In this document: one piece after another, positions 42,970-51,337 of the stretch | Position numbering within the stretch: position 1 is the first letter of the stretch | Layout: each line of letters begins with the position of its first letter | NCBI RefSeq assembly: GCF_001889025.1 | Contig: NZ_CP018154.1 | Location: forward strand, 124,001-188,000 | DNA: 64,000 nucleotides | Reading direction: 5' to 3' | DNA from: Sphingorhabdus lutea | GTDB taxonomy: Bacteria > Pseudomonadota > Alphaproteobacteria > Sphingomonadales > Sphingomonadaceae | The notes under the pieces: model-generated | The model's database searches: none | What the model was told of the DNA's origin: nothing | The model's input: only the letters and a program-made list of their open reading frames with translations | Position numbers and translations under genes: made by a program

Positions 42970-45047
<2,078 letters not shown>

Positions 45048-45091
45048 GATGATTAAGAACGCGAGCTTGATTAAATAATGGATGGGGGCAG

Positions 45092-45817: not shown

Positions 45818-45864
45818 GGAGATTGTATACTAAAAGTCCTTAGGACTTTTAGTATACAATCTCC
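45818..45864. promoter_or_regulatory. 47-bp perfect palindrome upstream of abiEi (site 1)
   Basis: Two 23-base arms (45818-45840 and 45842-45864) are exact reverse complements around one base. The centre reads AAGTCCTTAGGACTT and the outer arm contains GTATAC. It shares the core GTCCT-N-AGGAC with the second palindrome 50 bp downstream. In studied AbiE systems the antitoxin AbiEi binds paired inverted repeats in its own promoter; these are the obvious candidates. The rest of 45728-45963 holds no gene. Confidence 0.85.
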
Positions 45865-45904
45865 TTGCAAATGTCAAGCGTATTTAATGGTTATAATGTA
45901 GTTC

Positions 45905-45931
45905 TTGACTTTGTATGGCAGTCCATATAAT
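45905..45931 (+). promoter_or_regulatory. Candidate abiE promoter
   Basis: TTGACT (45905-45910) and a perfect TATAAT (45926-45931) are 15 bases apart, slightly short of the optimum. The -10 lies inside the second palindrome, so a bound repressor would cover it. Another TATAAT at 45892-45897 has no good -35. Confidence 0.5.
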
Positions 45932-45965
45932 TACGTCCTAAGGACGTAATTATATGGACTGCCAT
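45915..45965. promoter_or_regulatory. 51-bp perfect palindrome reaching into the abiEi start codon (site 2)
   Basis: Two 25-base arms (45915-45939 and 45941-45965) are exact reverse complements around one base. The centre is ACGTCCTAAGGACGT and the arms include CATATAATTA. The right arm ends on the first two bases of the abiEi ATG (45964-45966). It covers the candidate -10 box. Same core as site 1, so one protein dimer could bind both. Confidence 0.88.
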
Positions 45966-46854
45966 GGACAATAGCACAAAGCCTTTCTTTGAAAGAAAAA
46001 AAGCCACCAAATTAAGTGAGGTGGTGGCGAAAGAACTTTCGCGGTTAAACTTAGCATTAATTGAAGATTATACGCTATGGAAAATTATATCTGATATATA
46101 CGAAAAACGTTCTATAACTTATTTAAGGGGTAGCACACCAAAACTATCTACCCTTCAACGCATAAAGGACATACTCAAATCAGAACAAATCATTACCAGG
46201 GATCACGATTATAACAAAATGTGGCGGGTGAACCAAGTTTCTGATGTTCAAGCCGATGAAATAGTTTGCCTAGTCGATGAAAGCACTTGCATATCACATC
46301 TTAGTGCCATGCAAATATTCAACCTGACAGATAGAAGACCTCGTTCATTATACATCACGGTAGGCCCAAACGATCATTGGTCACGCGTGACCAATGCAAA
46401 TTTGAATGCCGATGACAAGGACGGCCCTAAGCGCTATAGAAGGCATCATCGTAAAATTGTGAGAGATAGAAATTTAGAAATATTTCATACAAAACGATAC
46501 CCAAACACTACACGGTTAAAATCTTCACATGTGCGTGTGACAGACATTGGGGAGACCTTCCTTAACATGTTAGAGCAGCCAGAAAGATGTGGTGGTATGG
46601 CACATGTGATAGATGTTTTTACTAAACACGCTCCGATATACCTTAGTGCAATAGTGGATAGGATAGAAAAGGCTGATAAGAAACTAACTAAAGTAAGGGC
46701 TGGATATATATTAACCGAACTATTAGGTCTAAAAAACCTTACAGTTGAAAATTGGATGCAATTTGCGCAGAGGGGAGGCAGTCAAAGACTAGATCCTACT
46801 GGGCCATATAAACCTGTTTTCTCTGAACAATGGATGATCTCTTTAAATGTCTGA
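45964..46854 (+). CDS. AbiEi-type antitoxin / transcriptional repressor (type IV TA)
   Basis: A 296-residue protein of the AbiEi family. The N-terminal ~90 residues (IISDIYEKRSITYLRGSTPKLSTLQRIKDILKSEQIITRDHDYNKMWRV) look like a winged helix. The middle has the AbiEi pattern VDESTCISHLSAMQIFNLTDRRPRSLYITV, and the C-terminal domain contains RVTDIGETFLNMLEQPERCGG. In known systems AbiEi counters the AbiEii nucleotidyltransferase and represses the operon. The ATG is overlapped by the second palindrome and has no clear Shine-Dalgarno site. Codons (ATA, AGA, TTA, CTA) differ from the host genes on both sides, indicating transfer. It overlaps the toxin gene by 8 bp. Confidence 0.85.
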   Translation: MDNSTKPFFERKKATKLSEVVAKELSRLNLALIEDYTLWKIISDIYEKRSITYLRGSTPKLSTLQRIKDILKSEQIITRDHDYNKMWRVNQVSDVQADEIVCLVDESTCISHLSAMQIFNLTDRRPRSLYITVGPNDHWSRVTNANLNADDKDGPKRYRRHHRKIVRDRNLEIFHTKRYPNTTRLKSSHVRVTDIGETFLNMLEQPERCGGMAHVIDVFTKHAPIYLSAIVDRIEKADKKLTKVRAGYILTELLGLKNLTVENWMQFAQRGGSQRLDPTGPYKPVFSEQWMISLNV

Positions 46855-47734
46855 CCCAGAGAAGCTAAAAGCAGTTCGACCTGCAAATTTCCAAGCTTGG
46901 GAAGATGCTGTTGTCCATGACAGGAAAACCCAACAAGAACGTATTGCGACAGAGCTATTACTAGCAGCTATTGGTTTAACAGAAAGCTTTAAAGACAAAA
47001 TATTATTAAAAGGTGGCATATTGGTTGGCGCCGTATATCAAAGCGGAAGAAATACCGCAGACATTGACTTCTCTACAACCGCAGAGCCGCATAAAAATTT
47101 TTTAGCAGTTCTTGAAAAAGAATTAGCCGATTCCTTACCTCTAGCCGCAGCAAAAATAGGTGCTCCCAATCTTATTCTGAAAATTCAGACAGTTAAATAT
47201 CGTCCGAAAGATACTGTATTTGAAGCCGCTATAGCGCCCGCAGTAGAAATTAAATTTGCCTTTGCAAATAGAGGAGAGGAAAGCGAGAAAAAATTAATTT
47301 CAGGAAAATCTAATAATATTATATATGCTGATATAAGCTTTAACGAAGAAATTCTCTGTATTGAAGAAATTGCTATAGGAGATAGCGGACTCAGCTTTTT
47401 TGCATATTCAAAACACGATCTTGTTGCTGAAAAATTAAGAGCTATTTTACAACAAAAGTTGAGAAAAAGAAACCGAAGACAAGACGTATATGACCTATGG
47501 TTTATAACTCAAAATCATGATTTCACGGATTATGACAAACAAAAAATCAAAATAGCACTCATAAAAAAATGTCAAAGCAGAAATATTGAACCAACAAATG
47601 CCTCATTAGAAGACCCAGAAATAATCGAACGGTCTAGAGAAGATTGGTTAACCTTAAAAAATGAGGTCGAATTTTTGCCTGAATTCGACGATGCATTTTC
47701 GGCAGTAAAACAATTCTACTCACAACTATGGTAA
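46847..47734 (+). CDS. AbiEii/AbiGii-type nucleotidyltransferase toxin
   Basis: A 295-residue protein of the DUF1814/AbiEii family. The nucleotidyltransferase signature KGGILVGAVYQSGRNTADIDFS has the GG-x(n)-D-x-D catalytic arrangement. A later FFAYSKHDLVAEKLRAILQQKLRKRNRRQDVYDLWFI (K-x-x-A-x-x-R ... R-x-D-x-Y-D-L) is the other family block. The toxin uses NTP to modify cell targets and causes growth arrest; in lactococci and streptococci it gives phage abortive infection. It overlaps the antitoxin gene by 8 bp, and its AT-rich codon use matches that gene. The insert ends within ~10 bp of its stop. Confidence 0.88.
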   Translation: MSDPEKLKAVRPANFQAWEDAVVHDRKTQQERIATELLLAAIGLTESFKDKILLKGGILVGAVYQSGRNTADIDFSTTAEPHKNFLAVLEKELADSLPLAAAKIGAPNLILKIQTVKYRPKDTVFEAAIAPAVEIKFAFANRGEESEKKLISGKSNNIIYADISFNEEILCIEEIAIGDSGLSFFAYSKHDLVAEKLRAILQQKLRKRNRRQDVYDLWFITQNHDFTDYDKQKIKIALIKKCQSRNIEPTNASLEDPEIIERSREDWLTLKNEVEFLPEFDDAFSAVKQFYSQLW

Positions 47735-47745
47735 CTAGAGCCCCC

Positions 47746-48951
47746 CTACCGAAAGCCAACTTCGAACCAGCGGGCGTTTTCGCCGGTGCGGAGCAGGCGG
47801 TAAGTGAAAATGGGTAATGGGTTACCCGCCGCGTCATAGGCATTTAATTTCGCGGCATCTCCATCCGCTGGGCCGCTTGCCTGTTCCATCGGCTTTAGGG
47901 CATTTAGGTTAATTCCCACGCTCCATATATTCGTGACCGATTTGTCCAATCCATTGGCACGGAAATTGGCAATGCTTTCGCCATCCACGGGAAAATGCAG
48001 CCATGCCATATTATTGGGGTTATTTTCTTGGCCCTTATCTTGTTCCGCTGCCATTTCTTCCATGTTATATTTCGACATGCCGCCATAATTGGTGACGGCA
48101 TCGGGCGTGCCATCGTCATGGCGGTGATCATGTTTTAACTGCACGCCTTTATGGGTGCGGGTAAAAACCCATGTGCGTGATTTGTCCCATTTTCCGGGCG
48201 ATGTTTCGACATGAAATGGCACGCGCACCTCTTCATCGGTGCATTTTTCCACATGCATTGTCATTTTCTTGCCCACAAAGTCCGCGTCCGCCGCCTCATC
48301 ACTTAATAATTTGCCAGATAATTTTTGCCCGCATAATTTTTGCAAATTTTGCCAAAACACTGTTTGATCGCTGATATCCATTTTTGCATGGCTTGTTTGG
48401 CGCACCAATGACCAGTCATAGCCCATTTGCCGAACGCGATTTTCAATAATTTTGCGCATGGCGGCGGGCGGATTTGCCTGTCGCGTTAACATCCATAAAT
48501 AACGCCCCGATGGTTCGCCCACAATGGACCAGCTATAATCATCTGCACGGTCCAGCACCCAATAATCACCGTAAAATGGACCAAAAAAGCTGACCTTTAA
48601 TTTTGCGCCCTTAATATGTTCATTGCCGTCATCAACCAATTTTGCCTTGCCCTTGGCCGTGCTGGTCTTACCATCCTTTATACAGCGGTTCACCACGTCA
48701 ATTTTGCCATCATCGCGCATGCTATAATCCGCGGTGACGCCGTCACATCCCTTTTGAAAGGGCGCTTCATATCGCGCCATTTCATACCATTTACCCAAAT
48801 ATAGGTCCAGCTGCACCGATTTTGCAGGTTGGGGCACATTGGCATTGCCCACCGGCCCCGCGCGGCCCACACATGCGGTTAAAGACAAAGCCGCCATGGC
48901 AGCAATATATATGGCCAATGGCCGGCGAGAAAAAATATTTTTCATCATCAT
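47746..48951 (-). CDS. Lipocalin (Blc-like) lipoprotein fused to a second conserved domain
   Basis: A 401-residue outer-membrane-type lipoprotein; the lipobox is LTAC in AAMAALSLTACVG. The first ~170 mature residues are a bacterial lipocalin: LDLYLGKWYEMARYEAPFQKGCDGVTADYSM (GxW motif) and DRADDYSWSIVGEPSGRYLWMLTR. The remaining ~210 residues (DQTVFWQNLQKLCGQKLSGKLLSDEAADADFVGKKMTMHVEKCTDEEVRVPFHVE ... HDHRHDDGTPDAVTNYGG) resemble a separate conserved hypothetical protein I recall from sphingomonads. The start is one of three consecutive ATGs (48945-48951). A TTGTCCGGACAA site lies 50 bp upstream, shared with the divergent gene. Confidence 0.82.
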   Translation of the reverse strand: MMMKNIFSRRPLAIYIAAMAALSLTACVGRAGPVGNANVPQPAKSVQLDLYLGKWYEMARYEAPFQKGCDGVTADYSMRDDGKIDVVNRCIKDGKTSTAKGKAKLVDDGNEHIKGAKLKVSFFGPFYGDYWVLDRADDYSWSIVGEPSGRYLWMLTRQANPPAAMRKIIENRVRQMGYDWSLVRQTSHAKMDISDQTVFWQNLQKLCGQKLSGKLLSDEAADADFVGKKMTMHVEKCTDEEVRVPFHVETSPGKWDKSRTWVFTRTHKGVQLKHDHRHDDGTPDAVTNYGGMSKYNMEEMAAEQDKGQENNPNNMAWLHFPVDGESIANFRANGLDKSVTNIWSVGINLNALKPMEQASGPADGDAAKLNAYDAAGNPLPIFTYRLLRTGENARWFEVGFR

Positions 48952-49001
48952 GACTATCTTATAGGGTTTTAGCCTTGCCAAAACAAATTATTTAACGCAA
49001 T

Positions 49002-51303: not shown

Positions 51304-51337
51304 AAAAAAAGCCCCTATTCGCATAGGGGCTTTTTTT
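51304..51337. terminator. Strong bidirectional terminator between the amine oxidase and the TonB receptor
   Basis: A perfect 15-bp stem (arms 51304-51318 and 51323-51337) with loop TCGC. Its outer part is seven A and seven T and its inner part GCCCCTAT/ATAGGGGC, so either strand gives a hairpin plus U-run. It separates convergent genes. Confidence 0.93.

Follow-up and report, generated by a model that had tools for sequence, protein, structure and literature searches.

Paired perfect palindromes before the abiE genes of Sphingorhabdus lutea: putative operators whose arm symmetry is probably regenerated by strand switching

In the AbiE systems studied so far, the promoter carries repeats of about 23 base pairs (bp), and each arm of that length is taken as one site for the regulator AbiEi (PMC3985639, PMC7319586). 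The repeats of Streptococcus agalactiae are inverted, lie 3 bp apart, have 4 mismatches and are perfect in their outer 11 bp, and similar repeats before other abiE loci are mentioned in connection with a supplementary figure (PMC3985639). The Rv2827c-Rv2826c operon of Mycobacterium tuberculosis is preceded by four 23-bp repeats in two pairs (PMC7319586), and AbiEi of S. suis binds two promoter repeats as well as a similar sequence at oriT (PMC11062541). Here we describe two perfect palindromes before the abiEi and abiEii genes in a stretch of 64,000 nucleotides (nt) of Sphingorhabdus lutea, referred to as the window. The palindromes are probably autoregulatory operators with an unusual history, in that the symmetry of their arms would be regenerated by strand switching during DNA synthesis. 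The elements concerned are the following.

45818..45864, no strand: distal perfect palindrome, 23+1+23 nt, 47 bp, centre T at 45841
45915..45965, no strand: proximal perfect palindrome, 25+1+25 nt, 51 bp, centre A at 45940
45964..46854, plus strand: abiEi, winged-helix antitoxin/regulator of 296 amino acids; PADLOC AbiEi PDLC02237, E 5e-98
46847..47734, plus strand: abiEii, nucleotidyltransferase-like toxin of 295 amino acids; PF08843 AbiEii, 78.6 bits (cut-off 22.5 bits); PADLOC PDLC02306, E 1.9e-95

A first-pass annotation, made from the sequence alone, had reported exact palindromes of 47 and 51 bp with GTCCT-N-AGGAC at both axes, and the coordinates above bear this out; their centres are 99 bp apart, not 90 bp as then stated. 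It had also named the two genes as abiEi and abiEii with an 8-bp overlap, in agreement with the PF08843, PADLOC and fold matches. Scans of AbiEi against Pfam and NCBIfam gave nothing up to E 1, and AbiEii had no match in NCBIfam. The structure model of AbiEi, with a mean predicted local distance difference test score of 91.9, matches S. agalactiae AbiEi (6y8q, E 3.4e-6) and Rv2827c (1zel, E 9e-6), which together account for all four chains matched in the PDB at E of at most 0.001. The locus thus combines a DUF1814/AbiEii toxin, an AbiEi-type winged-helix antitoxin, an overlapping two-gene operon and paired promoter repeats of about 23 bp. Within the window, these are the sole perfect palindromes (up to 5 nt at the centre) with arms above 15, and the core GTCCTNAGGAC has only two sites in the whole genome of 2,533,041 bases, namely the two palindromes. 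As single-stranded DNA, the distal palindrome folds into a hairpin of -21.3 kcal/mol (z -11.7) and the proximal one into a hairpin of -26.4 kcal/mol (z -13.7).

Compared with the described systems, the locus resembles that of S. agalactiae (6y8q) in its two-gene operon, DUF1814 toxin, winged-helix AbiEi, paired 23-bp promoter repeats and about one AbiEi per repeat. It differs in having a 1-nt centre, a shared inner core, no mismatches, free outer arms and two palindromes per promoter, and it shares neither the 3-bp gap nor the conserved outer part of the repeat. The likeness to Rv2827c-Rv2826c extends to the fold (1zel) and to four repeats in two pairs; however, the gaps there are 13 bp within pairs and 4 bp between them (PMC7319586), against 1 nt and 50 bp here. 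By analogy with these systems, the arm length fits one AbiEi per arm. The palindromes had been described beforehand as unusually long and perfect AbiEi operators; the operator reading is supported and the perfection is indeed unusual, but 47 to 51 bp is a normal length for a pair of sites of about 23 bp. No published description of these palindromes was found by title or abstract, in a search outside which bioRxiv and most subscription journals lay.

The palindromes are a regular companion of this group of AbiEi proteins. Starting from 50 aligned AbiEi sequences, we recovered 80 loci in named genomes (the best 80 of 114 confirmed), whose titles include Alpha- and Gammaproteobacteria, Rhodothermales, Acidobacteria, Coraliomargarita, Nitrospinota and others. 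Once the window and a further locus had been added, a perfect odd-centred palindrome with an arm of at least 12 was present upstream in 77 of 82 loci, 55 of which had two (132 palindromes in total). The five scored without one comprise two at a contig edge (L011 and L070), one with 10-base arms (L023), one with none (L067), and L005, stored on the other strand and scanned on the wrong side, which has two core palindromes with 21-base arms. Relatives also occur on plasmids (149 records, including 42 from Xanthomonas, 32 from Klebsiella and 18 from Escherichia), and all 12 plasmid loci first fetched (L090-L101) had at least one such palindrome. The working set was composed of 112 loci, with L005 left out, L087 and L088 found by the palindrome pattern itself and several near-identical plasmids included on purpose; in 109 of them a core-centred palindrome (core TCCTNAGGA, arm of at least 9) precedes abiEi, two in 81 loci and one in 28. 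The three others are L011 and L070, which lack upstream DNA at the contig edge, and L067, which an edge does not explain. All 190 palindromes of this set are centred on TCCT-N-AGGA, with G/C outside the core in 180 and A/T in 10. Perfect arms measure 18-27 bases in 184 of them and 22-23 bases in 106, and the arm lengths of the two palindromes of a locus are correlated (rho 0.71; 81 loci, not independent).

Scans of genomes with palindrome patterns gave the same picture. Pattern TATGTCCTNAGGACATA matched in 2 of 385 genomes of the class, both times beside abiEi, and pattern ACGTCCTNAGGACGT in 4 of 398 genomes of the phylum, three of which (the own genome, G643 and G549) have it beside abiEi with arms of at least 20; in the fourth (G567) the arm is 9 bases long and the 3-kb stretch around it shows no AbiE match. 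Long-armed core palindromes were thus found in the two scans only beside abiEi (the window, G233, G403, G643 and G549), and this supports that the palindromes travel with the abiE genes, a check that the first-pass annotation had proposed. Of the two genes, abiEi appears to be the one that they foremost accompany, because plasmid locus L101 has AbiEi and one palindrome in a stretch without an AbiEii match; of the 101 stretches that match AbiEi, several of them copies of the window's own, 97 also match AbiEii on the same strand. A phage origin was considered and rejected, as no AbiEi relative was found in 50,697 phage records and none of 31 pattern stretches in viral contigs was confirmed. Two abiE promoters carry other perfect palindromes: the proximal site of L057 is an even palindrome with 20-base arms and no TCCT core, and the distal site of L021 has a 3-nt centre and 22-base arms.

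Among other AbiE groups, the relatives with AbiEi_1 and AbiEi_4 domains have upstream repeats that are at best imperfect or spaced. Five of the 30 AbiEi_4 control loci (L107-L136) have an upstream inverted repeat scoring at least 15, with arms of 19-26 like those described here but with one or more mismatches and a spacer of 4-6; 13 of the 30 have no repeat scoring at least 8. Three of the five (L111, L113 and L114) share a sequence of type CATATTGTCGG with a 6-nt spacer, a candidate for a sequence-conserved operator in another AbiE group.

The arms of the palindromes are symmetric over a length at which they no longer have a common sequence. The left arm carries 2 bits of sequence information at the core but at most 0.3 bits at positions 11-22. 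Symmetry holds in 188 of the 190 palindromes at position 16, 182 at 19, 174 at 20, 156 at 22, 85 at 23 and 61 at 24; across positions 15-22 it amounts to 82-99%. The edge is sharp in Rhodobacterales-type loci (grouped by hand, with a few loci of Sphingomonas and Phenylobacterium among them), where 44 of 48 palindromes are symmetric at position 22 and 3 of 48 at position 23; by eye, their flanks are conserved and their arms variable. In enterobacterial plasmids, symmetry extends to 19/19 at position 18, 16/19 at 20 and 11/19 at 21; in Xanthomonas plasmids the counts are 18/22 at 20, 8/22 at 21 and 18/22 at 22; and in the remaining 96 palindromes 82 are symmetric at 22, 66 at 23 and 37 at 24. 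The proximal and distal arms of one locus share bases above shuffled loci at position 6 and at about 10-14: across 55 loci, likeness at positions 11-14 was 0.455 against 0.311 for shuffled loci (0/2000), with no excess at 15-18 (0.273 and 0.269) or 19-22 (0.282 and 0.273). Because the two palindromes of a locus resemble each other in the inner part, positions to about 14 are probably contacted by AbiEi, as predicted from these comparisons. Positions 15-22, where no such likeness exists, are read as DNA that is not recognised by its sequence.

The two arms also change together. Pairwise, 635 palindrome comparisons between loci of at least 62% protein identity, which are not independent, gave 4966 two-arm and 79 one-arm differences at positions 6-22. 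When each locus was used once and sister pairs were selected for the smallest fourfold divergence (23 pairs without overlap, 39 palindromes), positions 9-20 held 47 two-arm and 6 one-arm changes, four of the latter arising from a single 1-bp insertion in L143. Divergence at fourfold sites predicts 43.7 changes, a two-arm ratio of 1.08, in which the divergence of L092 is inflated by a frameshift (the gene is annotated as two pieces); without L037 and L049, which may have an arm indel, 33 two-arm changes are found against about 36 expected. A two-arm rate close to the silent rate is what unbiased copying from arm to arm predicts, with one substitution per position pair at the rate of a single site. 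The centre base behaves in a related manner. Inversion of a palindrome alters only its centre, to the complement. In 25 comparisons with fourfold divergence below 0.1, the centre was the same in 18 and complementary in 7 (all A/T), with no other change, while their summed divergence amounts to 0.342 expected substitutions (Poisson 8e-8), which puts centre changes far above the rate of silent sites; complete plasmids alone show a flipped centre in 3 of 16 comparisons (P about 0.001).

These observations are best accounted for, with moderate confidence, if the palindromes are AbiE autoregulatory operators whose arm symmetry is regenerated by strand switching while their arm length is kept by selection. 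As operators of a distinct AbiE subfamily, they would each bind two AbiEi molecules, one per arm and four in all, and thereby shut the promoter, as in known AbiE systems. AbiEi would read positions 1 to about 14 of each arm, and the outer part to about 22 would be symmetric but unread. Strand switching during DNA synthesis would copy one arm onto the other, and passage through the axis would invert the 1-base centre, so that a new one-arm mutation would be either erased or copied and the arms would drift together. The end of the arm at about 22 would most likely be kept by selection for the length covered by AbiEi. Template switching between inverted repeats is reported to homogenise arms and invert spacers in yeast genes (PMC8604942), and arms that evolve in concert have been described in hairworm mitochondria (PMC6649704). 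Since two-sided arm changes and fast centre flips are the marks published for template switching, the symmetry probably stems from strand switching rather than from sequence-specific binding. Both marks are seen here, perfect arms that change together and inversion of the spacer, some of the flips possibly being assembly errors. However, the yeast and hairworm repeats are scattered, whereas those described here have a set place in the promoters of a single gene family and are limited in length.

Several observations weigh against this explanation. As a general process, strand switching should affect other palindromes of the same DNA too, but these are not homogenised, so a site-specific factor is missing from the account. 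In 907,753 bases (the loci and the window), 191 core-centred palindromes with an arm of at least 14 were counted against 7 others, of which 2 (L021 and L057) lie at abiEi promoters. Other palindromes with a 1-nt centre in 750,183 bases number 714, 216, 68, 20, 15 and 3 for arms of 5-10, followed by one each at 16 and 17, a geometric fall-off as expected by chance, which counts on the favourable side as well; a general extension of palindromes in these genomes is rejected. Nor would passive correction, which should erode the arms from outside, give the sharp edge at 22 of one group. Among 14 comparisons of higher divergence, the centre was conserved in 6 and complementary in 2 and showed another change in 6, so ordinary substitutions occur there as well. 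A or T occupies the centre of 163 of the 190 palindromes, a preference that could bias changes towards A<->T, although it would not explain their speed, and assemblers using words under about 45 bases could invert the centre, which is less likely given the complete plasmids. The insertion in the left arm of the distal palindrome of L143 is not mirrored and is absent from its sister L142, one-arm differences occur at positions 20-22 among Xanthomonas plasmids, and the sister pairs share clades and are not fully independent. The data are also compatible with AbiEi holding up replication where it binds, with selection for coverage by AbiEi and with an enzyme dedicated to the palindromes.

The alternative that survives best, although it is unlikely, is selection for a DNA hairpin or cruciform, in which a mutation in one arm would be deleterious and then compensated, the cruciform serving as a promoter switch sensitive to supercoiling or replication forks. 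Symmetry without sequence, the very stable hairpins, the sharp arm length in one group and the correlated arm lengths within loci all fit such selection. The first-pass annotation had suspected a hairpin or cruciform, and this suspicion is strengthened, as outer arms that are free in sequence yet change in concert are not explained by sequence-specific operators. Nevertheless, compensation through harmful intermediates should be much slower than the two-arm changes observed, which proceed at the silent rate with hardly any one-arm intermediates, and the fast complementary centre changes would be left unexplained.

Rather improbable, too, is a dedicated reaction that cuts, copies or flips the palindromes, with the 22-base edge as a ruler, and that is carried out by AbiEi, by AbiEii (which has a nucleotidyltransferase fold) or by an enzyme recruited from the host. 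It would explain the sharp edge, the fast centre changes and why, in the DNA examined, long arms are confined to AbiE loci. On the other hand, no recombinase or polymerase gene common to the neighbourhoods was seen in annotated plasmid loci, viewed by eye in flanks of 300-2500 bases, or among the window's neighbour genes, and the significant PDB matches of the AbiEi model are AbiEi-type regulators only. The same absence of a shared invertase or recombinase speaks against a site-specific inverton. Mobilisation of the module by the palindromes, a hairpin role suggested earlier, likewise finds no support, as no shared recombinase and no further arm above 15 in the window was found. A speculative extension, which we regard as doubtful, is that AbiE palindromes are actively flipped and re-copied, that an arm length of about 22 bases is intrinsic to them, and that either AbiEi-bound DNA or one of the AbiE proteins drives the process. 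The toxin would then be released when the cruciform or hairpin state is sensed as a signal of fork stress, of supercoiling or of a phage enzyme that cuts junctions.

Ordinary dimer operators, in which sequence-specific binding along the whole arm explains the symmetry, are already disfavoured and very unlikely: known AbiE operators are indeed paired 23-bp repeats (PMC3985639, PMC7319586) and inner positions are shared within loci, but positions 15-22 are unlike between palindromes of the same locus and differ freely between relatives. A selected RNA stem, as a hairpin transcript or small RNA, is hardly credible, since despite the long stem into which the strand folds (with DNA parameters) and a share of G-T among mismatches somewhat above expectation (9 of 36, against 6 if all kinds were equal), only 36 of 3800 pairs at positions 1-20 are mismatched although G-U is readily accommodated in RNA stems, no Rfam family reached its gathering score (best 31.8 bits against 139), and the predicted start at the axis would leave only one arm in the main transcript.

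In the explanation that we favour, the -10 element and start site of the putative abiE promoter would lie inside the proximal palindrome; candidate elements of this promoter and of a possible leftward one are listed below.

45905..45910, plus strand: TTGACT, -35-like, predicted abiE promoter
45926..45931, plus strand: TATAAT, -10-like, predicted, inside the proximal left arm, 15-nt spacing
45928-45933, plus strand: TAATTA, alternative predicted -10, 17-nt spacing
45872..45877, minus strand: TTGACA, -35-like, possible leftward promoter
45851..45856, minus strand: TATACT, -10-like, predicted, in the right arm of the distal palindrome

Among 77 loci, TTGAC starts 31-37 bases ahead of the proximal centre in 62 occurrences, which suggests a -10 element in the proximal left arm and a transcription start near the centre at 45940. 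The promoter is given as putative because TATAAT lies at 15-nt spacing and a consensus scan, which required 16-18 nt, missed it. The second palindrome had been said to contain the likely -10 box and to end in the abiEi start codon; its last base is indeed the second base of the ATG (45964-45966), and the -10 box keeps the rank of a prediction. Leftward TTGAC at 31-38 has 19 occurrences among 55 distal palindromes and is therefore not general, and some other distal palindromes have, by eye, a rightward counterpart.

The abiE module was probably acquired, because AbiEi of the window has no match in 44 genomes of the same genus and the G+C content at third codon positions (GC3) of abiEi (0.34) and abiEii (0.25) lies below that of three neighbours, the alkB-like gene (0.425), the lipocalin gene (0.52) and thiC (0.54). 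Codon use unlike that of the neighbours, as noted in the earlier reading, is a fair description for GC3, the sole codon measure compared. In a search for the empty insertion site, the lipocalin gene had matches in 33 of 45 genomes of the genus (own included), but neither the alkB-like gene nor thiC was within the flanks of any of the 30 loci taken, own included; the flanks were too narrow for this comparison, that of the own locus also stopping before the two genes. This lipocalin gene (window 47746-48981, 411 amino acids) is matched in the genus in its N-terminal part (about 21-211) or its C-terminal part (about 157-360). The open reading frame may be a fusion, because the two parts match separately in 8 of the 33 matching genomes (G001, G018, G021, G029, G031, G032, G043 and G044). 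Elsewhere in the window, a short repeated motif resembling GATTAAATGCGAA occurs at 45001-45081, at the end of thiC and before the alkB-like gene, and a perfect 15-base inverted repeat with a 4-nt loop at 51304-51337, between converging genes, is probably a terminator. Around the plasmid loci, a gene for a PP2C-type or serine/threonine phosphatase follows abiEii in enterobacterial plasmids (L091, L095, L146, L147, L148 and L154) as a possible third operon member, an N-6 DNA methylase gene follows it in L092, L093 and L152, and a tyrosine recombinase together with a WGR-domain gene precedes abiEi in L092, L093, L094, L151 and L153.

The AbiE palindromes represent a promoter element of one defence gene family, found across phyla and also on small E. 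coli plasmids, whose symmetry is seemingly inherited by copying and not by selection on sequence. They offer one known site at which template switching in wild bacteria can be measured, through centre flips and arm copying, and they caution that a perfect palindrome need not imply sequence-specific contacts along its full length. If it is true that AbiEi sets the 22-base edge, the occupancy of DNA by a protein would be linked to a mutational process.

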